From: a virus
Length of the DNA: 64,000 bases
Direction: 5' to 3' (one strand)
Virus record (IMG/VR): IMGVR_UViG_3300009503_000027
Location: 1-64,000 of that record
The notes under the pieces are model-generated. The model saw only the letters and a program-made list of their open reading frames with translations. It was not told the DNA's origin and did not search any database. Each line of letters begins with the position of its first letter. The stretch's first letter is position 1. Below are positions 1 through 62,550 of this stretch, in pieces. A program made the translations under genes and the position numbers.

Positions 1-260
1 CGGCCGCATGGCGGCCCCATGGCGGCCCCATGGGCGGCCGCATGGCGGCCCCATGGGCGGCCGCATGGCGGCCCCATGGGCGGCCGCATGGCGGCCCCAT
101 GGGCGGCCCCATGGGCGGCCGCATGGCGGCCCCATGGCGGCCCCATGGGCGGCCGCATGGCGGCCCCATGGGCGGCCGCATGGCGGCCCCATGGGCGGCC
201 CCATGGGCGGCCGCATGGCGGCCCCATGGGCGGCCGCATGGCGGCCCCATGGGCGGCCGC
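1..260. repeat. GC-rich tandem repeat of 11-12 bp units
   Basis: About 22 head-to-tail units alternate between two forms, GGCGGCCCCAT and GGGCGGCCGCAT, and the array runs off the left edge of the window. Each unit carries overlapping palindromes (GGCGGCCGC, CCATGG) and an ATG, so all frames stay open and give Met-Ala-Ala-Pro-Trp-like repeats. I treat those reading frames as by-products. The composition is far above that of the phage genes. Confidence 0.9.
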
Positions 261-2336: not shown

Positions 2337-2492
2337 ATGAAATTCTATCGGTACAGGGTCGGAGAGAGCCGCATCACGGTCTCGCTACCAATGGAGGCTG
2401 GGTTGGCCGAAGACATATCCCGGAGCCTAGTCCTGCCGGAGGATGAGAAGCTGGTTCCGGTACCGGCGTGGACCGGGCCTGGGGGGTTCTAG
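2337..2492 (+). CDS. Small hypothetical protein, 51 aa
   Basis: ATG at 2337 with AGGAGG at 2323-2328 (8 nt spacing). The predicted peptide begins MKFYRYRVGESRI and has a balanced composition unlike the surrounding low-complexity DNA: a short beta-like N-terminus, an acidic middle and a Pro/Gly-rich end. No family recognised. It is followed 15 nt later by another small ORF with its own weak SD, suggesting a two-gene unit. Confidence 0.55.
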   Translation: MKFYRYRVGESRITVSLPMEAGLAEDISRSLVLPEDEKLVPVPAWTGPGGF

Positions 2493-2507
2493 GTCATAGG
2501 TGATGAC

Positions 2508-2618
2508 ATGGTCACCGCCTATGACGTCGAGCAGGGGAGTATCCACATCCTCTGGCAGGAGCCGATCTGGGCGGACGCGGAGATAGTGCGTGCCGTACGG
2601 CAGGCGGCGCAGGAGTAG
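2508..2618 (+). CDS. Small hypothetical protein, 36 aa
   Basis: ATG at 2508 behind AGGTGA (2496-2501), 15 nt after the preceding gene. The peptide begins MVTAYDVEQG and ends in an Ala/Arg/Gln helix. It ends before a hairpin at 2664-2698. Short and unrecognised; real mainly by its SD, coding-like composition and position. Confidence 0.4.
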   Translation: MVTAYDVEQGSIHILWQEPIWADAEIVRAVRQAAQE

Positions 2619-2930: not shown

Positions 2931-3704
2931 TTATATTCGTGTTCCTTTGGGCATGAGGGAGTGGAGGGGGTAGAGGAGTGGGAGGGGGCTTGCTTCCACG
3001 ACGGGGTGTGGGGAGCCGAGGCGGCGGAGGGCCCGTTTGAGCCAGTCGGCAGTTTTGAAGGCTAGGCCGAGGCGCCGGCGGCCGATATCGCGGAGGAGGG
3101 TAGCGAGGGCCCAGGTACCTTGCAGGAGAGAACCTTGGATATAGTTAGAGAACCATGCTTGGGCATTTTCCGGGGCGGTAGCTACGGAGATGATGGTAGA
3201 GGGTGGCAGGATTCTCCATTCAGCGGTACCGAGTTGTGGGGAGTCGTGGAGGATATGGGTAGGGGGGATACGATCGGAGAGCCAGCCGGCGGCGTGGCAG
3301 GCATCTATTATGACGAGGGTAGTATATCTATGCCCCCAGCGGGGGGCGAAGGCGTTCCAGAGGTCGTCATCGGTGAACCAGGTACTTGTGTCTTGGGTAT
3401 CCGTATCATAGGTGAGGAGGGCTTCGTCGTAGTGGTCGGGTTCATCTTGGTTGGTGTCCCAGAGTTGGAGGCCGTGGCCGAGCCAGACCCAGACGATGGG
3501 GCCGTCATAGGAGACAAGTTTAGCGAGTTTACGTTTGAGTTGGGGGGTAGTGATGTTGAGGGTAGGGGGTTGGACTTGCCACCCGATGGCCTGGAAGGCT
3601 TCATTCCAGAGGCGGGCAGAATTCTCCACGGGGACCGGGGTGAGGTGAAGGTCGCGTGGTTCGGCGGGCAGGGCGCAGCCGGTGACCAGGGTACGTACTT
3701 TCAT
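2931..3704 (-). CDS. Metacaspase-like protease (peptidase C14 family)
   Basis: A 257-aa cysteine protease of the caspase-hemoglobinase fold, predicted to cleave after basic or acidic residues (metacaspases usually prefer Arg/Lys). The signature is clear. A hydrophobic strand ends in W-L-G-H77-G, giving the catalytic His. The acidic loop YDTDTQDTSTWFTDDDL (residues 99-115) matches the family's conserved substrate-pocket region. VIIDACHAAG gives the catalytic Cys136 in D-A-C-H-x-x-G. A later ISVATAPENAQAW segment matches the strand after the active site. No signal peptide. It is the second gene of a minus-strand unit after a secreted 3D-domain protein, divergent from the lysis genes. It is a minimal single-domain enzyme with no fused partner. 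Family call is firm; role unknown. Confidence 0.85.
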   Translation of the reverse strand: MKVRTLVTGCALPAEPRDLHLTPVPVENSARLWNEAFQAIGWQVQPPTLNITTPQLKRKLAKLVSYDGPIVWVWLGHGLQLWDTNQDEPDHYDEALLTYDTDTQDTSTWFTDDDLWNAFAPRWGHRYTTLVIIDACHAAGWLSDRIPPTHILHDSPQLGTAEWRILPPSTIISVATAPENAQAWFSNYIQGSLLQGTWALATLLRDIGRRRLGLAFKTADWLKRALRRLGSPHPVVEASPLPLLYPLHSLMPKGTRI

Positions 3705-3752
3705 GTAGCATCACCATGCAGGATTGTAGCATATGATATAGGGATTGCCAAC

Positions 3753-4223
3753 TTACCTGGGTATGATAGCGGCCTGTGTGAGTTTCCAGCCATCGAGGCC
3801 TTGCTGGCGGGCTTGCCTCTTCGAGGGCATCCAGATATCCACCCAAAGGGCGTTATAGCGGGCAGCCTTGCGGTCGTTAGAGGGGGCTCCGCGGTCACGG
3901 ATACGCCGGAGGCCAGTTAGGGGTGTCCAGATACACCAGCCTTGGGGGATACGGTTAGCGCTTGCCGCATCGGGGCCCAGGGGCTGCCCGTGGCAATCTA
4001 CCCGTCCGCTACGGCCCTCCGAAGGATAGTAGGTGGTGAGGACAACGCGGTGTATGGGGGCAAGGTGCATTTGTATGCCTTTCTTGTAGGCTTGTTCTTG
4101 CCACGGCTGGAGGGGGCCATAAGCCCCGGCAAGGGCCTTATTAGCAACCTGGAGGAACGTATTGTCCCCGGCGGGGCCGCCGAAAAAACAAAAGGCTACC
4201 ATCAAGCAGATAGCTTGCTGCAT
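3753..4223 (-). CDS. Secreted 3D-domain cell-wall protein
   Basis: 156 aa, start ATG 4223 with AGGAGGGA upstream. Residues 1-19 form a hydrophobic signal-peptide-like segment. The C-terminal half fits the 3D (Asp-Asp-Asp) double-psi beta-barrel found in RlpA/MltA-type lytic transglycosylases and spore-germination proteins: three acidic positions at Asp110 (DRG), Asp117 (ND) and Asp129 (LWVDIW), with the conserved TTYYPSEG entry strand at 63-70. It probably binds or cleaves peptidoglycan outside the membrane. It is first in the unit with the metacaspase (48 nt gap) and divergent from holin and amidase genes, consistent with a role in wall degradation or modification. Confidence 0.7.
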   Translation of the reverse strand: MQQAICLMVAFCFFGGPAGDNTFLQVANKALAGAYGPLQPWQEQAYKKGIQMHLAPIHRVVLTTYYPSEGRSGRVDCHGQPLGPDAASANRIPQGWCIWTPLTGLRRIRDRGAPSNDRKAARYNALWVDIWMPSKRQARQQGLDGWKLTQAAIIPR

Positions 4224-4248
4224 AACTGGGTTCCCTCCTATCAGAGAT

Positions 4249-4297
4249 ATTATATCATGATTGCGTGCTTGTCAAACAAGGGGGCATGTGTTATATT
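4249..4297. promoter_or_regulatory. Overlapping divergent promoters
   Basis: Plus strand: TTGTCA (4269-4274), 17-bp spacer, TATATT (4292-4297), toward the lysis/virion operon. Minus strand: TTGACA (4275-4270), 15-bp spacer, TATAAT (4254-4249), toward the 3D-domain and metacaspase genes. The two -35 boxes share five bases, so RNA polymerase could occupy only one at a time. Confidence 0.7.
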
Positions 4298-4327
4298 GAG
4301 GCCACTCTGATAGGCAGGTGATGAGAG

Positions 4328-4630
4328 ATGTTAGAGGCTTCTGGGGGCATGGTTGCTGCCGTGGCGGCGGTTGTCTGGCTTCTCATGGATATACAGAAGA
4401 AGGCCGAGAAGCGTGACTGGGAAGGTTTGCTGAAGCAGGTGGAGGTAGTGGCCGTGAGTATTATTTGTTGTGTAGCTTGTTGTGTGGATGTCTTAGGTGG
4501 GGGGACGGTGGCAGGGAAAGTTTTGACAGGCTTAGTGATTGCCGCCGTGAGTACGGGGTATCATAAAGTTGCAAGCACCGCGATAGCAGTACGTGATGCC
4601 AATATGGGAGACGCGCCTAACGAGCGCTGA
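4328..4630 (+). CDS. Holin-like small membrane protein
   Basis: 100 aa, ATG 4328 with AGGTGATG upstream. Hydrophobic segments at about residues 7-20, 38-56 and 61-80 with a charged loop (KKAEKRDWEG) and a hydrophilic tail. It is the first gene after the plus-strand promoter, and its stop overlaps the start of the endolysin (TGATG). Size, topology and position immediately before an amidase are those of a class I/II phage holin, which forms the membrane lesion that releases the endolysin. It could also be an unrelated membrane protein. Confidence 0.6.
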   Translation: MLEASGGMVAAVAAVVWLLMDIQKKAEKRDWEGLLKQVEVVAVSIICCVACCVDVLGGGTVAGKVLTGLVIAAVSTGYHKVASTAIAVRDANMGDAPNER

Positions 4631-5346
4631 TGACCATGATAGGACGTCAAGTAACTCTCGAAGGCTTAGAAGAGCATCTCCGGGGCCTCCGGGGACGGTT
4701 CCTGGAAGGTCATACCGTCACCGAGCTTATCCTGCACCATACGTGGTCGCCAACGGCGGCCCAGTACAAAGGCCTGGATACCTGGGAAGCCATCCGGGCA
4801 TATCATATGAGGGAGCGTGGCTGGCGGGACATCGGCTACCATTTAGGTATCGGGCCGAAAGAGGAGGGTGTCTGGCTCTTGCGGCCGATGACGATGATTG
4901 GGGGCCACTGCACGGGCCATAACAGCAAAAGCATCGGTATCGCCATGGTGGGCAACTTCGACAAGGAAGATCCGGAGTTATGTCTGCCCCAGGCGGTGAG
5001 GGTGCTGGCGGTTTGTTGCCGTGTCTTAGGCTTAGGGCCAGAGGATATCTACTTCCATCGGGACTTTGCCAACAAGACGTGCCCGGGGACGAAAATCAGC
5101 CGCGCGGATGTCCGGGCCTCGGTGGAGCAACTCCTAAAAACAGCGCCCAGTACGCCAAAGAAGCCCGGGAAGCTGCAAGTTGTCCGCGTGATTGATGATA
5201 ACCGTACTGAGGCGATACCATGTAACCCGAAGGTGGAAGGGGATGTTGTCCGGTGTGACCTACGGGCCTTGGCCGAGGCCCTGGGTTACGTAGTCACCGA
5301 TCATATTAAGGATCAGGGAATAGTCTATATCAGTCGGCGGGGGTGA
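4630..5346 (+). CDS. N-acetylmuramoyl-L-alanine amidase endolysin
   Basis: 238 aa. Residues 30-165 are an Amidase_2/PGRP domain that cuts the amide bond between MurNAc and L-Ala in peptidoglycan. It shows LILHHTWS (His36/37), the GYHLGIGP strand, the SIGIAMVGNFD strand, and FHRD...TCPG with His143 and Cys151 as zinc ligands. Residues 185-238 look like a copper-amine-oxidase-N-type or other small beta domain, perhaps wall-binding. No signal peptide, so it would depend on the adjacent holin-like protein. Confidence 0.9.
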   Translation: MTMIGRQVTLEGLEEHLRGLRGRFLEGHTVTELILHHTWSPTAAQYKGLDTWEAIRAYHMRERGWRDIGYHLGIGPKEEGVWLLRPMTMIGGHCTGHNSKSIGIAMVGNFDKEDPELCLPQAVRVLAVCCRVLGLGPEDIYFHRDFANKTCPGTKISRADVRASVEQLLKTAPSTPKKPGKLQVVRVIDDNRTEAIPCNPKVEGDVVRCDLRALAEALGYVVTDHIKDQGIVYISRRG

Positions 5347-16133: not shown

Positions 16134-16340
16134 ATGCCCTACAACAGCGTTGATGATCTGCCACCGGCATTCAAGGGCTTCACGCCCGAACAGCGCAGGT
16201 GGGTACTGCCTGTCCTGAATGCGCTACTGCGTGTCTATGATGACGAAGGCCAGGCAATTGCTATCGCGATAGCATTGCTAAAAAAGCACTTTGGCTTGGG
16301 GAATGACAATGGCCGAGGCAGCAAGCGAACAAAGAGTTGA
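16134..16340 (+). CDS. ChaB-like protein
   Basis: 68 aa. MPYNSVDDLPPAFKGF at the N-terminus and the Gln/Ala-rich helices ending in ALLKKHFG match the ChaB family (MPY-x(3)-DLP ... A-x(3)-KK-x-F). Phage ChaB-like proteins usually sit next to head protease or portal genes, as here. The molecular role in virions is unclear. It overlaps the protease gene. Confidence 0.7.
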   Translation: MPYNSVDDLPPAFKGFTPEQRRWVLPVLNALLRVYDDEGQAIAIAIALLKKHFGLGNDNGRGSKRTKS

Positions 16341-17880
16341 GAAGATACAACTCTTCTGGGTGAATGTCGACAAAGTCGAAGAAGGCGACGAGTGGGCATT
16401 TCACGTTATTGCCTCCACGGATACCCTGGACAAGCATGGTGAAGTGATCGATCCGCAGGCAATCCGGAAGCTAAAGCAGGTAGAGCAGATACCATTCTGC
16501 CTGGCGGAGAGCCATGAAGCTGCCCGCGTCATGCCTACGGCACAAATCGGATGGTTCTATCCTAATAAGGATGGTCCCGACAATATTTATGACGGCCGGG
16601 TTGTCCTCTTCAAATGGCATCCTGAGGCGGCCGTCTATTGGCAAGTTGTCAACGAAAACCCCAGCGATCAGAAGTGCAGTATCGCTGGCGACTTGGTTGC
16701 GGCCACAACGCGGCGGCGGCCGACCCGTATCCTTGATATGATCCCTGACCATATCTTGGCTACACGTGCTGCCGTCGCGGCCAACCCTGATACCAAAGTA
16801 GAAGTTGATATGAGAACCGCAGTGTGGAAGTCTCTTACCGCCGCAGTAGGAGGCGAGAACATGAGCATGGATACCGAAGAGCTGTGGGACGAGAATGAAG
16901 AGGCGGATGAGCTAGTCGTTGAGGGGCTAGAGGAACTTCCGCGGGATGCAGACATCGAAAAGGCAGACATTGAGGTCTCGAATAAGCCCTGGCGCACCAT
17001 CGGGTATGCTAAGCGTCTGCCCAAGGAATGCTTCCTCTATGTTCCGGATCCGGAGAAGAAGTCTACATGGAAGTTCCCCGTGTACGAGGGGAAGAACCCC
17101 GATTCGGATGGCAACTTCCAGGATCGTGGGCCGCTCAACTGGCATGCTCTCCGCAACGCGGCAGCACGCCTCATCGCTATTAAGAACCGCCTCGCGTCCG
17201 GCCGTGGCTTCCGTGGCATGTCTGACGCGGAGGCACGCGACCTAGTATCCACGGTAGCACCCAAGATAGTAGAGCTGTATAAGAAGATCGGGAAGCCGAT
17301 ACCAGAAGCACTAGCAAGATATGATAAGACTGCTGAGGAAGGTGGCATAATGGCCAAGACTTCCACGATTATCGAGGCGGTTAAAGAAGCAATTAGTGGC
17401 GTCATGGGCGAGCTGCTAGGCGCGCGTCAGCCAGATGCTGCACCCGCCGAGCCACCGGTAGCCGAACCCCCTGGTGACGATGTTGCCAAGACCGAGGAAC
17501 CTCCGGAGGCAGCGCCTGCCGATGCTTCTGTTGCCCCGGCACCCGGACCTTCTCTGGAAGAGCGCCTGGCAACGCTCGAGGCCATGTTCGCCGAGATGAA
17601 GGGCGTGCTCGAGCAGTTTGCCGCCGCCAGTGTCGCCAAGACCGATGAACCCGAGGAAGAGCCTGCCGACATCGGCAAGGCTGTTGCCGAGGCTCTGCAG
17701 CCACTTGTGACTGAAGTGCGCACGCTTCAGGAGCAGGTGGACAAGATTGCCAAGGCCCGTGGGGTTTCGCTGCAGGTGGAGAAGGCGTCGGAGCCTGTGA
17801 GCGAGCCGATAGGGCGGCGCATGGGCACCCTGGGGCCACTTGATGACTTCGAGGGTGTCCTTCGCGCACATGCTAAATAA
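16303..17880 (+). CDS. XkdF-like prohead protease fused to scaffold
   Basis: About 525 aa. ATG 16303 is favoured; an in-frame TTG lies at 16291. Residues 10-150 resemble the PBSX XkdF/prohead serine protease domain: VIASTDTLDKHGEVIDP, then a His (AESHEAARV) and a Ser (KCSIAGDLV) in the expected order for the catalytic pair. A middle domain (about 200-320) contains WHALRNAAARLIAIKNR. From about 340 it becomes Ala/Pro/Glu-rich and coiled-coil (LEERLATLEAMFAEMKGVLE), the mark of a scaffold cleaved during capsid maturation. It lies directly before the capsid gene. Confidence 0.75.
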   Translation: MTMAEAASEQRVEKIQLFWVNVDKVEEGDEWAFHVIASTDTLDKHGEVIDPQAIRKLKQVEQIPFCLAESHEAARVMPTAQIGWFYPNKDGPDNIYDGRVVLFKWHPEAAVYWQVVNENPSDQKCSIAGDLVAATTRRRPTRILDMIPDHILATRAAVAANPDTKVEVDMRTAVWKSLTAAVGGENMSMDTEELWDENEEADELVVEGLEELPRDADIEKADIEVSNKPWRTIGYAKRLPKECFLYVPDPEKKSTWKFPVYEGKNPDSDGNFQDRGPLNWHALRNAAARLIAIKNRLASGRGFRGMSDAEARDLVSTVAPKIVELYKKIGKPIPEALARYDKTAEEGGIMAKTSTIIEAVKEAISGVMGELLGARQPDAAPAEPPVAEPPGDDVAKTEEPPEAAPADASVAPAPGPSLEERLATLEAMFAEMKGVLEQFAAASVAKTDEPEEEPADIGKAVAEALQPLVTEVRTLQEQVDKIAKARGVSLQVEKASEPVSEPIGRRMGTLGPLDDFEGVLRAHAK

Positions 17881-57307: not shown

Positions 57308-58384
57308 TTAGCGCCGAACATGCACACTATGTTTGTCTACGCCTAGCCAAATGCTGATAGCCCCCAGGTCTGCAGGGGGCAAGCCCATCTCCGCTGGATA
57401 GCCCCTGTGCTTGAGAAAGGATGGTAACAATACCCTGTGTTGGCCATAGGCTACTACGAGGCCCTGTTCGTTGGGGCCGAAGCGGATGTCGCGCCAAGCC
57501 ATCTCTTGATGCAAGTGCCCCACCGTCACGATATCTGCGTTTGTGGTTGCAGCTATCCGGTCGGCACGGGAGACTTTTGCGCCCCGCGTCTGGGAAGCTC
57601 CCGCCCCATGATGGTGGTAATGGGTGTACATCTGCTTGACCTTGCCATTGATGATTAGCTTATATGTGAGATGGCCCTCGTAGCCCCAGAAAGGCAGGCC
57701 GAGCCGGTTGGCAAGCTCCTCCGAAGGATCCAGGTTTGCTTGTAAGAGGCGTGTGATGCGGCGGTCGTGGTTTCCTGTGAAGATGGCGATACCCTGGCTG
57801 GTGATAGGCCGTAGCCGCATGGTTAGTAGGTCTAGGGCTTCATTGAGTTCGCAGAACTGTTCGCGTAGGAGGCCTGGGCTTCCTGTTGTGGCCAGGTCGA
57901 AGTTGTCCCCGCCCAGGAACCATCGTGCTGTTGGGGTAGCGGCTATCCATTCCACCAGTTCGACGAACCGCTTGTAGTCGCAGTGCTTGCTGCCCAGATG
58001 TAGGTCTGAGATGGGAACGAGGCAGACTTCCTTTGTCCCACGGGGCACTTTCCATTCATATTCCAGGACTCTTTCTTGGGCTTCTGATTGTTCGAGGTAC
58101 TCCGCATCGAGGTCTTCCACCGTGCGTGCATCCGAGAAACGCTCGTTGCGCTGGAACATTATGGACTTCCGCCCTGTATGCTTCCCATGGCAGCCTAGCC
58201 CCAGCTTCCGGAAACAGTGCTGCATTGTGGAGGGCGAGAGGCCCACCCATTCGGCGGCAAGTTTAGCATTCCCATGGAAGCGCTGATGGAGAAGCAAGCC
58301 GCCTATCTCGTAGCCTCCTAGCATCTGCCATACTTGCCCCCCAACCCCGCGTAGTGCATCCCAATCTATCTTGTCGGCTTTCAT
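57308..58384 (-). CDS. Calcineurin-like phosphoesterase (Mre11/SbcD-like)
   Basis: 358 aa. Metal motifs in order: DLHLGSKH (Asp, His), GGDNFD, FTGNHDRR, YTHYHHHG and GHLHQ. An N-terminal helix-turn-helix-like part (AAEWVGLSPSTMQHCFRKLG, about 43-62) may recognise DNA. Phage members act on DNA ends or in recombination. Overlaps the first methyltransferase gene by ATGA. Confidence 0.82.
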   Translation of the reverse strand: MKADKIDWDALRGVGGQVWQMLGGYEIGGLLLHQRFHGNAKLAAEWVGLSPSTMQHCFRKLGLGCHGKHTGRKSIMFQRNERFSDARTVEDLDAEYLEQSEAQERVLEYEWKVPRGTKEVCLVPISDLHLGSKHCDYKRFVELVEWIAATPTARWFLGGDNFDLATTGSPGLLREQFCELNEALDLLTMRLRPITSQGIAIFTGNHDRRITRLLQANLDPSEELANRLGLPFWGYEGHLTYKLIINGKVKQMYTHYHHHGAGASQTRGAKVSRADRIAATTNADIVTVGHLHQEMAWRDIRFGPNEQGLVVAYGQHRVLLPSFLKHRGYPAEMGLPPADLGAISIWLGVDKHSVHVRR

Positions 58385-59331
58385 GGCTCTACCTCGGCGG
58401 CAAGATCTTCCTTATTATACCCCGCTTCGCTATCGGATACACTATCCCATAGGCTGAGCTGGCCAACTTTCTCCTGTGCTGTTTGTGGGTCAATCCATAG
58501 GGATTCTATTCGGGGCTGCATGGTTGATCTTGCCCCGTTGCCCCGGATACCGGTGGCCCTTGTACAAGCTGCTGCTAAGCACGTCCTATTGAAGTCAAGG
58601 CGTACCCACCCGGCCTCTTCCAGGGGAGCATAGACCTCGTGCTTGTATCCCGACAAGGCAAACTTCCCCGGTAACCCTAGGATAGTGCGAACAAGCTCTG
58701 CATGGTCCTCCACCGTCATTTCGTGCATATATACATCGGGCGACCGTCGGACATCGGGGACGTATGGTGGGTCAAGATAACAGAACGAGTGCGGAGAACA
58801 GTATTGTTGCAAGACTTCAATGGCGGGACGCGACTCTATGTGCGCTCCATGGAGGCGGGAGGCACATGCGGGCAATACCCTAATCGTGCTCAACAGACGT
58901 GCACAGGTGCCAGCCATGTGGCGGGAGGTAGTCTCAACTGCAAGCGACCAGCTGGCCCCCCAGTAGCCCGAAAAGGACTGCTTGGCAACTACCCACCAAC
59001 GCCACGCCCTACGCACTGGGTCAGTTTCGTTGTTCCATTCGCGGCGGCACTCCTCATACAGTTCCCGGCTGTGTAAGGTGAAGTATGCTAGATGCATAAA
59101 CTCATCCGGGTGATCGCGTAGGACACGAAAGAATTCCACCAAGGGCTGGTGGATATCATTGATGACCTCGAAGCGGGCTGGTGCTTTAGCAAAAAACAGG
59201 GCGGCAGAACCACAGAATGGCTCAATGTATACATCATGGGCTGGCATCAATGAAAGCAGTTGTCGCAGGAAGGGCGTTTTGCCGCCATACCAGAAGAATG
59301 GCGCTGGTATCCTTGGTCCATTACTGGTCAT
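58381..59331 (-). CDS. D12-class adenine-N6 DNA methyltransferase, copy 1
   Basis: 316 aa. FFWYGGKTPFLRQLLSLMP, SAM motif VYIEPFCGSAALFFAK and the catalytic CYLDPPY identify a Dam/D12 family enzyme. It methylates adenine in short target sites, protecting phage DNA from restriction or host defence. Tandem with and paralogous to 59328-60212, joined by ATGA. Confidence 0.9.
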   Translation of the reverse strand: MTSNGPRIPAPFFWYGGKTPFLRQLLSLMPAHDVYIEPFCGSAALFFAKAPARFEVINDIHQPLVEFFRVLRDHPDEFMHLAYFTLHSRELYEECRREWNNETDPVRRAWRWWVVAKQSFSGYWGASWSLAVETTSRHMAGTCARLLSTIRVLPACASRLHGAHIESRPAIEVLQQYCSPHSFCYLDPPYVPDVRRSPDVYMHEMTVEDHAELVRTILGLPGKFALSGYKHEVYAPLEEAGWVRLDFNRTCLAAACTRATGIRGNGARSTMQPRIESLWIDPQTAQEKVGQLSLWDSVSDSEAGYNKEDLAAEVEP

Positions 59332-60212
59332 GCCTCTTCTCCTATTAATTGCGTCTGTGCCCGGACCAGCTTGGCAGTTTCGGGGTCAAGCCAGACGGAC
59401 TCAACCCGCGCTTGTTTTTCCAAGACAGTGCCGTCGCCCAGGAGCCCCGTTCGGCGCGACCGTGCGGCGGCATAGCATCCCGTGGGGAAGTCTATCCGTA
59501 CCCATCCTGCCTCTTCCAATGGTTTGTATACTTCGTGGTTATATCCTGATAGCATGAAGCGCCCAGGCAAGGATAAGAGGACCTCAACTAATTCTTTATG
59601 CTCTTCTACAGACATTTCGTGGTCATATACGGTACTACTGCGGCGTGTGTCAGGAATATATGGCGGGTCGCAGTAGCAGAACGAGTTTGGTGTGCAGTAT
59701 TGCTGCATGACTTTGATAGCGGGGCCGCACTCTATCTGGGTACGTTTGAGACGCTCTACACAATCGGGCAGGTGTTCAACTGCTGAAAGCAGAGCACTAC
59801 AGGACATCGCCATGCCACGGCGTGATAATGTGATGTTAGATCTCCATCCTGCTCCCCAGTTGCCGGAGAAGGACTGGCGCGCCACTACCCACCAGCGCCA
59901 TGCTTTGCGGACCGGGTCTGTTTCTTCGCGCCATTTGGCCCTGCATTCTTCGAATAACTCGCGGCTATGGATTGTCAGCCTGGCGAGTTCTATGAACTCT
60001 TGGGGATAATCGCGGAGAACCCGGAAGAACTCCATCACGGCATGGTCAATGTCGTTAATGGTTTCAACCAGGGCCGGCTCCTTGGCAAAGAAGAGTGCTC
60101 CACTGCCAAAGTACGGTTCAACATACTCCCTGTGTGGGGGCACTAGGCGTAGTAGCCTTCCTATCATGTTGCCTTTACCTCCGTAGCGGCAAATGGGCGA
60201 GTGCAAGTGCAT
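59328..60212 (-). CDS. D12-class adenine-N6 DNA methyltransferase, copy 2
   Basis: 294 aa. CRYGGKGNMIGRLLRLVP, YVEPYFGSGALFFAK and CYCDPPY give the same architecture as copy 1, and the RAWRWWVVARQSFSGNWGA block is near-identical across copies. The target-recognition part differs most, so specificity may differ. Confidence 0.9.
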   Translation of the reverse strand: MHLHSPICRYGGKGNMIGRLLRLVPPHREYVEPYFGSGALFFAKEPALVETINDIDHAVMEFFRVLRDYPQEFIELARLTIHSRELFEECRAKWREETDPVRKAWRWWVVARQSFSGNWGAGWRSNITLSRRGMAMSCSALLSAVEHLPDCVERLKRTQIECGPAIKVMQQYCTPNSFCYCDPPYIPDTRRSSTVYDHEMSVEEHKELVEVLLSLPGRFMLSGYNHEVYKPLEEAGWVRIDFPTGCYAAARSRRTGLLGDGTVLEKQARVESVWLDPETAKLVRAQTQLIGEEA

Positions 60213-60515: not shown

Positions 60516-61091
60516 TTACTTGAGCCGGATTGTGCCCTGCCGGCTTCTGTCTGTTATCCAGACATGGATGCTAAAGCCCCGGATACCTAGGTCAGACAGG
60601 AGTGCCTGTACATGCATTGCCTCATCGCCACGGTAAAGATCGAATAGGATATATCCTTCGTGCCCGCAAGAGCCAGTAGTATTTATACCCTCATTGCGGA
60701 GAGCGTAAACCACCGGCCGGATGCATTCGTCTATTGCCTGGTAGAAGGACGTTTCGGGCGGCGTGGGCAATGGTCTACTTCCCGCAACTACCTCAATCCC
60801 ACATGCACGGAGCTTTTGTACCATCTGTTGTTGGCGCACGGCTTCTCTTACATCCTGCAGGTATGCTTTGGTCGCCGGGGCAGAGTCCAGCCAGTCTGCC
60901 CCTTCCCAGGTTACCCAACTTGCAAAGTGGCATAGGAAATGTTCAGCCGGCCAAGCCTCCTCGAGGGTGCGCGCCTGGCGAAGAGCAAAGTCGGCAAAAC
61001 TTTGTGCTATCTGGTGGCAAGCTCCTTGCCTCACGGCGAAGCTGTAAAGCTCGCTTCTCAATACGTCCCATGTTGTTGATGGGCCAACCAT
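60516..61091 (-). CDS. Hypothetical protein, 191 aa
   Basis: Helical protein with SCGHEGYILFDL and a WEGADWLDSAPATKAYL segment. Overlap with the HTH gene downstream suggests co-translation. The start at 61091 lacks a good SD. No family recognised. Separated from the deoxyribosyltransferase-like gene by the tmRNA-like fragment. Confidence 0.5.
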   Translation of the reverse strand: MVGPSTTWDVLRSELYSFAVRQGACHQIAQSFADFALRQARTLEEAWPAEHFLCHFASWVTWEGADWLDSAPATKAYLQDVREAVRQQQMVQKLRACGIEVVAGSRPLPTPPETSFYQAIDECIRPVVYALRNEGINTTGSCGHEGYILFDLYRGDEAMHVQALLSDLGIRGFSIHVWITDRSRQGTIRLK

Positions 61092-61148
61092 TACTGTTGT
61101 GCTTTTCCCCTGTGCCTCTTGGTCATTAGGGCGCCCCTCATGCTGTTA

Positions 61149-61185
61149 GGTGGAGGCGGCGGGAGTTGAACCCGCGTCCGGTGGC
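61149..61185 (-). other. tmRNA (ssrA) 3'-end fragment, att-site candidate
   Basis: Minus strand reads GGAC-GCGGG-TTCAACT-CCCGC-CGCCTCC-A-CC. This is the T-arm (61159-61175) plus 3' acceptor strand and discriminator of tmRNA. The U of the G-U pair used by alanyl-tRNA synthetase is at the expected place. The final A of CCA is T. No 5' tmRNA half is visible; genes flank it. Phages that integrate into ssrA carry such a copy as attP. Confidence 0.7.
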
Positions 61186-61189
61186 AAGC

Positions 61190-61618
61190 TCAATCCGCTT
61201 GCACATCGTCGAGCCCATCGCCCCCAACGAATGGTACATCTTCTATCTGCCTGTAGATGATTTTACCATGTTGCTGGGCATGTGCCAACTCCATGTCTGC
61301 TCCCTTTGAGGGAGCAAGATACAAAAGTGCATCCACCATCTCAACTATCCGGAGGTCCATCCGCATGAAGTCTTCCCACTTAAGTTTATACCCAGAGAGA
61401 AGTGGCATCCAGCAAGTCATGCTATGAGGGACTATGACTGCCCAGCCTTTCTGCATCAGCTGTACACCCGCGCGGACTGCCCTATATATGTTCCAGACCT
61501 GTTTGATGAAAGACAGGGGCCAGGGCCACCCGCGGCCCATGTATGGCCCTGCAATGTAAATGATTGGCAGTTTTCCCTGTTCTTGAGCGCACCCTAGCGG
61601 GGGGCGGCAGAATCTCAT
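61190..61618 (-). CDS. DUF4406 / nucleoside 2-deoxyribosyltransferase-like protein
   Basis: 142 aa from ATG 61618 (GGAGGTAA SD). PIIYIAGPYMGRGW at the start and PSKGADMELAHA with the catalytic-type Glu near the end are family hallmarks. Enzymes of this fold move bases between deoxyribosides; phage versions may modify nucleotide pools. Stop lies directly before the tmRNA fragment. Confidence 0.7.
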   Translation of the reverse strand: MRFCRPPLGCAQEQGKLPIIYIAGPYMGRGWPWPLSFIKQVWNIYRAVRAGVQLMQKGWAVIVPHSMTCWMPLLSGYKLKWEDFMRMDLRIVEMVDALLYLAPSKGADMELAHAQQHGKIIYRQIEDVPFVGGDGLDDVQAD

Positions 61619-61632
61619 TCGTACTTTACCTC

Positions 61633-62550
61633 CTACAGTTCTGAGTGGCCGAACAACTTGCCACTTTGTATTCCTAGCTCTTTGGCTGTTCTGGGGTCGA
61701 GCCACACCGACTCGATGCGTGGCTGCATAGCCGTAGCGGCGCCCTTGCCTAGTATGCCGGTGCCGACTGTCCGGCCAGCCGCATGGCAGGCTGTCCGGAA
61801 GTCCACGCGTGCCCAGCCCGCCTCTTCTAGGCGGGCATACAGCGGATTGGCATACCCGGATAGTAAGACCTTCCCCTTGACCTCCCCTGACAGGAGGAAG
61901 TCAATAAGACGTACGTGGTCCTCCTCCGACATCTCATATGTGTACACTTTGGGTTGAATTCGCGTACTCGGCAGATATGGCGGGTCTAGATAGTGCAAGC
62001 AATCTGGCGTATCTGTCCGCATAACAGCCCTCTGCCAATCCGTGCAAGAAATCTGAACACCTTGTAAGCGCGCAACTACTTGCGGAAGGCTCTCTACGCA
62101 AGACAAGAGGCTGGCCACTCCTTTGGGCATTGCGCCAGCAGTTTGTGTGCGCGTATGTCCCCACGCTGCTCCCCAATTGGCCGCGAAGCTCATCCTTGCG
62201 ACTACCCACCAGCGCCACGCCTTGCGGACAGGGTCTGTTTCTTCGCGCCATCTGGCCCGGCACTCGCGCCAGAGTGCTTCACTATACTCTGTGAGGGCGG
62301 CAAGTTGAATGAATTCCTCTCCGTGGTCGCGAAGCACGCGGAAAAACGTGGTCACGGCCTCATCTATGTCATTGATGGTTTCGTGGGGCGCCGGGGCCTT
62401 GGCGAAGAACAAGGAGCCGCCGCCAAAGAACGGTTCGCAGTATTGCTGATGAGAAGGCACCAGCCGTAGAAGTCTTCCCACCATGTTGCCCTTACCTCCA
62501 CGGCGCTGGATGGGCGAGCGGAGCCGACGTTTCCTTTTGTCGGGTGCCAT
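61633..62550 (-). CDS. D12-class adenine-N6 DNA methyltransferase, copy 3
   Basis: 305 aa, ATG 62550 with AGGAGGG. RRGGKGNMVGRLLRLVPSHQ, YCEPFFGGGSLFFAK and HYLDPPY. Third member of the paralogue set, with the shared REETDPVRKAWRWWVVAR block. It differs most in the segment before DPPY, so it may recognise another site. Confidence 0.9.
   Translation of the reverse strand: MAPDKRKRRLRSPIQRRGGKGNMVGRLLRLVPSHQQYCEPFFGGGSLFFAKAPAPHETINDIDEAVTTFFRVLRDHGEEFIQLAALTEYSEALWRECRARWREETDPVRKAWRWWVVARMSFAANWGAAWGHTRTQTAGAMPKGVASLLSCVESLPQVVARLQGVQISCTDWQRAVMRTDTPDCLHYLDPPYLPSTRIQPKVYTYEMSEEDHVRLIDFLLSGEVKGKVLLSGYANPLYARLEEAGWARVDFRTACHAAGRTVGTGILGKGAATAMQPRIESVWLDPRTAKELGIQSGKLFGHSEL

Follow-up and report, generated by a model that had tools for sequence, protein, structure and literature searches.

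A caspase-type peptidase gene beside the lysis genes of a tailed phage and its possible part in lysis

The window analyzed here is a stretch of 64,000 b that makes up bases 1-64000 of a viral record of 80,834 b. Near its left end, a 156-aa ORF and the gene of a caspase-type cysteine peptidase are located on the minus strand, upstream of and divergent from a lysis unit that comprises a holin-like membrane ORF and an amidase endolysin (Table 1). The holin-like ORF overlaps the start of the amidase gene, and 926 b with two ORFs separate the caspase gene from the amidase start. The preliminary description of this DNA had called the caspase divergent from the lysis genes, and this is the arrangement that we found: caspase and endolysin lie on opposite strands, with promoter-like sites back to back.

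Table 1. Features at the caspase locus, in window coordinates
Feature	Position	Strand	Basis
Tandem array of ~23-b units, left part	1..258		same array in record 80678-80834, at the right end
Caspase-type cysteine peptidase (orthocaspase-like), 257 aa, ATG start	2931..3704	-	PF00656, conserved columns, fold
Promoter-like site directly before caspase, TTGGCA-17-TACAAT	3723..3751	-	consensus scan 10/12
156-aa ORF upstream of caspase, same strand	3753..4223	-	signal-peptide-like N-terminal stretch by eye
Inverted repeat, arms 4237-4246 and 4305-4314, enclosing both divergent promoter-like sites	4237..4314		exact 10-b arms
Promoter-like site of the 156-aa ORF/caspase unit, TTGACA-17-TAATAT	4247..4275	-	consensus scan 10/12
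Promoter-like site of the lysis unit, TTGTCA-17-TATATT	4269..4297	+	consensus scan 10/12
Holin-like membrane ORF, 100 aa	4328..4630	+	PHROG holin E 0.07 (weak); hydrophobic segments by eye
Amidase_2 endolysin	4630..5346	+	PF01510 E 6.7e-15; PHROG endolysin E 1.1e-25

The peptidase had been described as a metacaspase-like protease with the full layout of the family, and our analysis upheld this assignment. Its match to PF00656 (caspase domain, Peptidase C14) scored 26.7 bits (E 5.5e-6), above the curated Pfam cut-off of 21.4 bits, which excludes a chance match. The catalytic dyad is present, with His77 within GHG and Cys136 within D134-A-C136-H, and so is an acidic stretch (D83..D87-E88-P-D90..D93-E94), followed by TDDD at 111-114. 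In an alignment of the window caspase with 44 caspases of viral contigs (45 rows), 10 columns were invariant (L19, G76, H77, G78, D90, D93, E94, D112, D134 and C136), and the window caspase has all of them; its identity to the other phage caspases is 18-28%, and the N-terminal G-I-N-x-Y motif that is usual in most other rows is missing. No PHROG, NCBIfam or PADLOC family matched the protein, and neither a signal peptide nor a C-terminal membrane anchor was visible by eye. The acidic residues D87, E88, D90, D93, E94 and D134 are retained and, as a putative orthocaspase, the protein would be expected to prefer cleavage after Arg or Lys. Codon usage was set aside as proof of coding: the ORF scores -0.04 per codon and a longer antisense ORF at 3120-3920 (+) scores alike, at 0.03. 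Since codon usage fails to separate the two, the coding case for 2931-3704 consists of homology and fold.

The preliminary description had proposed a comparison of the predicted structure with p20-type caspase folds, and a caspase fold was indeed obtained. The AlphaFold2 model, built from the alignment, had a pLDDT of 72.9 and a pTM of 0.74, with block pLDDT values of 72-94 across the p20 part (residues 31-140). Residues 147-192 were modeled with low confidence (mostly pLDDT <50) and precede a putative p10-like C-terminal part, modeled with helices at 192-209 and 218-229 and a strand at 235-237. The best PDB match in Foldseek was the metacaspase of Candida glabrata (7qp0, E 3.3e-8), and the best in VIA-align was Arabidopsis metacaspase 9 (AtMCA-IIf; 8a53), with Z 16.9 over 197 residues at 2.7 A. 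By sequence, the best PDB match was GSU0716 of Geobacter sulfurreducens (3bij, E 0.0033), which was also among the Foldseek matches. Thus, the caspase fold of the window protein is well supported by structure prediction.

The 156-aa ORF had previously been called a 3D wall protein, a name that our searches did not sustain. Its resemblance to a 3D domain is by eye only; there were no Pfam, PHROG, NCBIfam or PADLOC matches at the limits used and PDB matches were at chance level, although a 3D domain could escape such searches. A single-sequence model of the ORF was worthless (pLDDT 36.7). The divergent promoter-like sites upstream of this ORF and of the lysis unit share one -35 element (4269-4275), their -35 hexamers overlapping at 4270-4274. 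Of 1000 mononucleotide shuffles made from the 104-b intergenic stretch, two had repeat arms as long as those of the inverted repeat around the sites, and the RNA fold of the divergent promoter stretch was unremarkable (z -1.1). Because the two sites have one -35 in common, the sequence agrees with the earlier suggestion that the caspase promoter excludes that of the lysis unit; both sites are putative, being consensus matches only. A scan of 6 kb gave six such sites versus 2.6 (sd 1.7) expected, so that any single one is weak evidence. The caspase may also be read separately, from its own promoter-like site at 3751-3723.

PHROGs recognized a terminase, a portal, a virion protein, a primase-helicase and an integrase on the viral record, and the virus is a tailed phage with an integrase. 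A GC-rich tandem array occupies both ends of the record (258 b on the left, 157 b on the right) and occurs nowhere else in it; the terminal 76 b on the right have an identical copy near the record's start. The raw ends themselves overlap, suffix to prefix, by no more than 5 b, so that a circle is reached through the array; IMG/VR classes the record as linear. A circular map broken within the repeat is the simplest reading. If the map is circular, the caspase gene is internal to the phage genome, between the end array and the lysis genes. The possibility that 2.9-3.7 kb is host DNA next to an integrated phage, raised in the preliminary description, was ruled out because both record ends share the array (76 identical bases) and the caspase sits between the array and phage genes; the gene is phage-borne. 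A sister contig, identical across the terminase and the amidase, begins inside the amidase and hence cannot confirm the caspase.

Several other features of the record were observed. A phage-borne tmRNA-like gene at 60852-61242 (-), with the ARAGORN tag AHPRGGLAG and a match to Rfam RF00023 at 61148-61225 (59 bits), could relate to the integration site. Three paralogous ORFs on the minus strand (58381-59331, 59328-60212 and 61633-62550) resemble D12-class DNA adenine methylases by eye. In the record at 72020-74558, a MoxR-like ATPase is followed by a protein with a vWA-like end, by eye a CobS/CobT-like pair; PHROG matches there were one ATPase family and one family labeled HNH endonuclease. The stretch 2337-2618 (+) reads well as a coding frame, with a lead that resembles a ribosome-binding site and the highest codon score among the stretches tested, but one in-frame TAG interrupts it; a broken gene, a pair of small overlapping genes and an error could each account for this.

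Caspases of this kind are almost absent from cultured phages. Against 50,697 phage records, the window caspase retrieved a single protein at chance level, and two other phage caspase queries retrieved 1 record, an unannotated 485-kb uncultured phage, in agreement with the earlier remark that phage-encoded metacaspases are rarely described. Gp90 of Mycobacterium phage KayaCho (E 0.2) was rejected as a relative, being a DUF932 protein matched by chance. Scans requiring exact short peptides, which miss distant kin, found no close relatives of the window caspase in viral contigs; in genome contigs, 61 stretches fitted a pattern and none was confirmed. A two-row alignment query gave one distant genome-contig match, which lies within a long ORF of a MAG assigned to Gammaproteobacteria. 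In BFVD, which comprises predicted viral protein structures, 23 models matched at E <= 1e-3, and the names listed were all of eukaryotic viruses.

An alignment of seven IMG/VR caspases, used as a query, retrieved 77 loci, which together with five further ones gave 82 caspase loci, falling into 72 clusters at 80% identity. A lysin, confirmed by family search, was found within three called genes of the caspase in at least 15 of the 72 clusters and was its direct neighbor in 11 (the 15 being L120, L121, L122, L123, L127, L139, L141, L145, L150, L152, L153, L155, L163, L171 and L173, with the lysin below the Pfam cut-off in L153 and recognized by PHROG only in L171). These lysins belong to PF11860, PF01183, PF01510, PF05257, PF00959, PF05838, PF01520, PF13539 and PHROG endolysin 894. 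The placement of the caspase beside lysins is direct, often overlapping, and extends across many lysin families; several other phage caspases lie in apparent operons on the strand of the lysin. Caspase and lysin were on the same strand in all 15 clusters, whereas in the window they are divergent, with two ORFs between them. No recognized lysin was present within three genes of the caspase in 57 of the 72 clusters, nor, by eye, in any of 13 contigs longer than 100 kb.

Proximity was tested on 47 caspase contigs of 20-100 kb, which were searched for eight lysin families and later for PF11860 as a ninth. Lysin matches were obtained in 18 contigs (two below the family cut-off), and 29 contained none of the families searched. 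The lysin was located within 1.5 kb of the caspase in 8 of the 18 contigs versus 1.02 expected by random placement (P ~3e-6), and within 7 kb in 12 versus 4.29 expected (P ~9e-5), relatedness among contigs being only partly removed from these P values; in the other six, the distance was 15 to 39 kb. A CHAP search had no match in the 47 contigs, and neither did the PF11860 search, which gave no match anywhere and is hence uninformative. For comparison with other accessory genes, an HNH family was searched and found in 8 of the 47 contigs, four of which also had a lysin match, with the pair within 1.5 kb in 1 of the 4; with four records carrying both, the sample is too small to tell caspases from other cargo. 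Firm phage genes at the loci include a tail sheath (L120) and terminases (L119 and L123). One terminase family, PF03237, was present in 18 of the 47 contigs, 11 of them above the cut-off, so that phage origin is not established gene by gene for all contigs.

In a quick tree (71 rows), 13 changes were needed for the lysin-adjacent label, compared to a mean of 13.7-13.8 for shuffled labels, and well-supported branches force 6. The label is thus scattered on the tree, and a single inherited caspase-lysin arrangement appears unlikely. The window caspase forms a long branch, and its place among phage caspases is unsure. Ten small membrane ORFs beside the caspases of other contigs matched no holin family in PHROGs. 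By eye, a hydrophobic, tail-anchor-like C-terminal stretch of ~20 residues was seen in the caspases of 7 of the 72 clusters (L119, L121, L164, L166, L171, L172 and L178), but not in the window caspase. Outside the viral contigs, plasmid pCYAN10605.01 of Cyanobacterium aponinum (NC_019777.1 49834-52088) carries a caspase and, divergent from it, a gene cluster that includes a lysozyme-type glycoside hydrolase, in the same geometry as in the window; the plasmid also has CRISPR type III genes. It was set aside as evidence for a phage link, as the PLSDB table annotates no phage structural gene on it.

The window caspase shares with prokaryotic metacaspases such as GSU0716 (3bij) the Pfam family, the His-Cys dyad, an acidic S1-type stretch and a single chain with a p20 and a putative p10-like part, but differs in being phage-encoded and in lacking the G-I-N-x-Y that most other rows of the alignment have. 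In G. sulfurreducens PCA, an amidase domain has been reported within a metacaspase operon, in a passage that leaves the gene unnamed and in which one sentence also refers to eight phage-related metacaspase operons in Clostridium botulinum (PMC3501461). The latter represent an earlier mention in print, and that sentence states no link to lysis. The metacaspases of Medusavirus and Heterosigma akashiwo virus 01 (HaV01) have been called the first of cultured viruses (PMC6450098). These are likewise virus-encoded proteins of the caspase fold, but from viruses of eukaryotes. To our knowledge, no phage-type lysis genes lie beside them. In bacterial gasdermin anti-phage systems, a caspase-fold protease is tied to membrane rupture and cell death (PMC9612521); unlike the caspases of those systems, the window caspase is itself phage-borne and adjoins phage lysis genes, and no PADLOC defence model matched beside it. 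A survey of bacterial metacaspases does not use the word phage (PMC4933709). Our search of the titles and abstract openings of openly licensed PubMed Central literature found no description of a caspase in a phage lysis cassette.

Because of its caspase fold, its proximity to the lysis genes, the shared promoter region and the analogy with other viral contigs, we tentatively favor a role of the window caspase in lysis, as a possibility that stays somewhat short of probable. The protein would be a minimal cytosolic orthocaspase-like peptidase serving as a late-infection accessory of the lysis module. Late in infection, it would cleave a small number of proteins, perhaps only one, behind basic residues. 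The substrate would be one of the lysis proteins (holin, antiholin or endolysin) or, on the host side, a protein of the envelope or cytoskeleton; such cleavage may bring on cell collapse sooner or set its time. Lysis timing had been among the guesses of the preliminary description: the other viral contigs favor the tie to lysis (8 of 18 versus 1.02 expected), but the window gene is divergent from its lysin, and this orientation, together with the long-branch position, counts against the lysis reading, as do the 57 clusters with no recognized lysin within three genes and the 29 contigs that lacked the lysin families searched. Accessory genes may also gather around lysis genes without any connection to lysis. 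For the other three guesses (virion processing, killing of competitors and blocking of a host caspase), the analysis gave no direct evidence in either direction. More doubtful is the wider proposal that caspases are a recurrent, independently acquired part of phage lysis cassettes, which would switch on or time the rupture of membrane and wall for viral exit. Gasdermin cell death, in which a caspase triggers rupture, would follow the same logic, there without viral exit.

The lysis role has its main rival in a defence function directed at other phages, because caspase-like proteases of bacteria take part in gasdermin systems against phages (PMC9612521). The caspase, expressed from the prophage, would stay dormant until a second phage enters and then cleave proteins of the cell and abort the infection (superinfection exclusion), the neighborhood of the lysis genes being a mere common landing site for cargo. 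The integrase of the phage and the promoter-like site of the caspase itself agree with this scenario, as does the match of the PADLOC generic caspase model to 5 of the 7 phage caspases submitted from other contigs; for the window caspase and its two neighbors, however, PADLOC matched no family (E <= 0.01), the 257-aa protein has no sensor or regulatory domain, and several other phage caspases are placed in apparent operons on the lysin's strand. We consider defence fairly unlikely. Neutral cargo, or cargo that benefits the host, for example in stress response, is unlikely as well. In that case, the enrichment near lysins would mark the places where phages tolerate insertions, which accords with the 57 clusters that have no recognized lysin within three genes and with the divergent orientation in the window, but less well with the excess of lysins within 1.5 kb and with the direct, often overlapping placement next to lysins of many families.

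Two further roles appear far less probable. In counter-defence, which we regard as very unlikely, the phage caspase would bind or out-compete a host caspase or cleave a host defence effector; anti-phage systems of bacteria do include caspase-like proteases (PMC9612521), but the window sequence itself contains nothing that points to counter-defence. Because the His77/Cys136 dyad is intact in the window caspase, a simple inactive decoy is unlikely. Hardly probable at all is a part in virion maturation by cleavage of head or tail proteins. Proteases dedicated to this step are common among tailed phages, but they are usually grouped with the portal and capsid genes, whereas the caspase is encoded ~10 kb from the portal gene and on the opposite strand. 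The ORF at 16291-17880, a candidate prohead protease, had no PHROG match.

Caspases are known above all from animals, where they act as cell-death proteases; their roles in bacteria are much less well defined. With a caspase of its own next to its lysis genes, this phage provides a small, tractable setting for the function of prokaryotic caspases. If the enrichment near lysins reflects function, phage lysis would include proteolysis as a further layer, in addition to holins, endolysins and spanins, and virus-driven cell rupture and caspase-driven cell death would have a mechanism in common.
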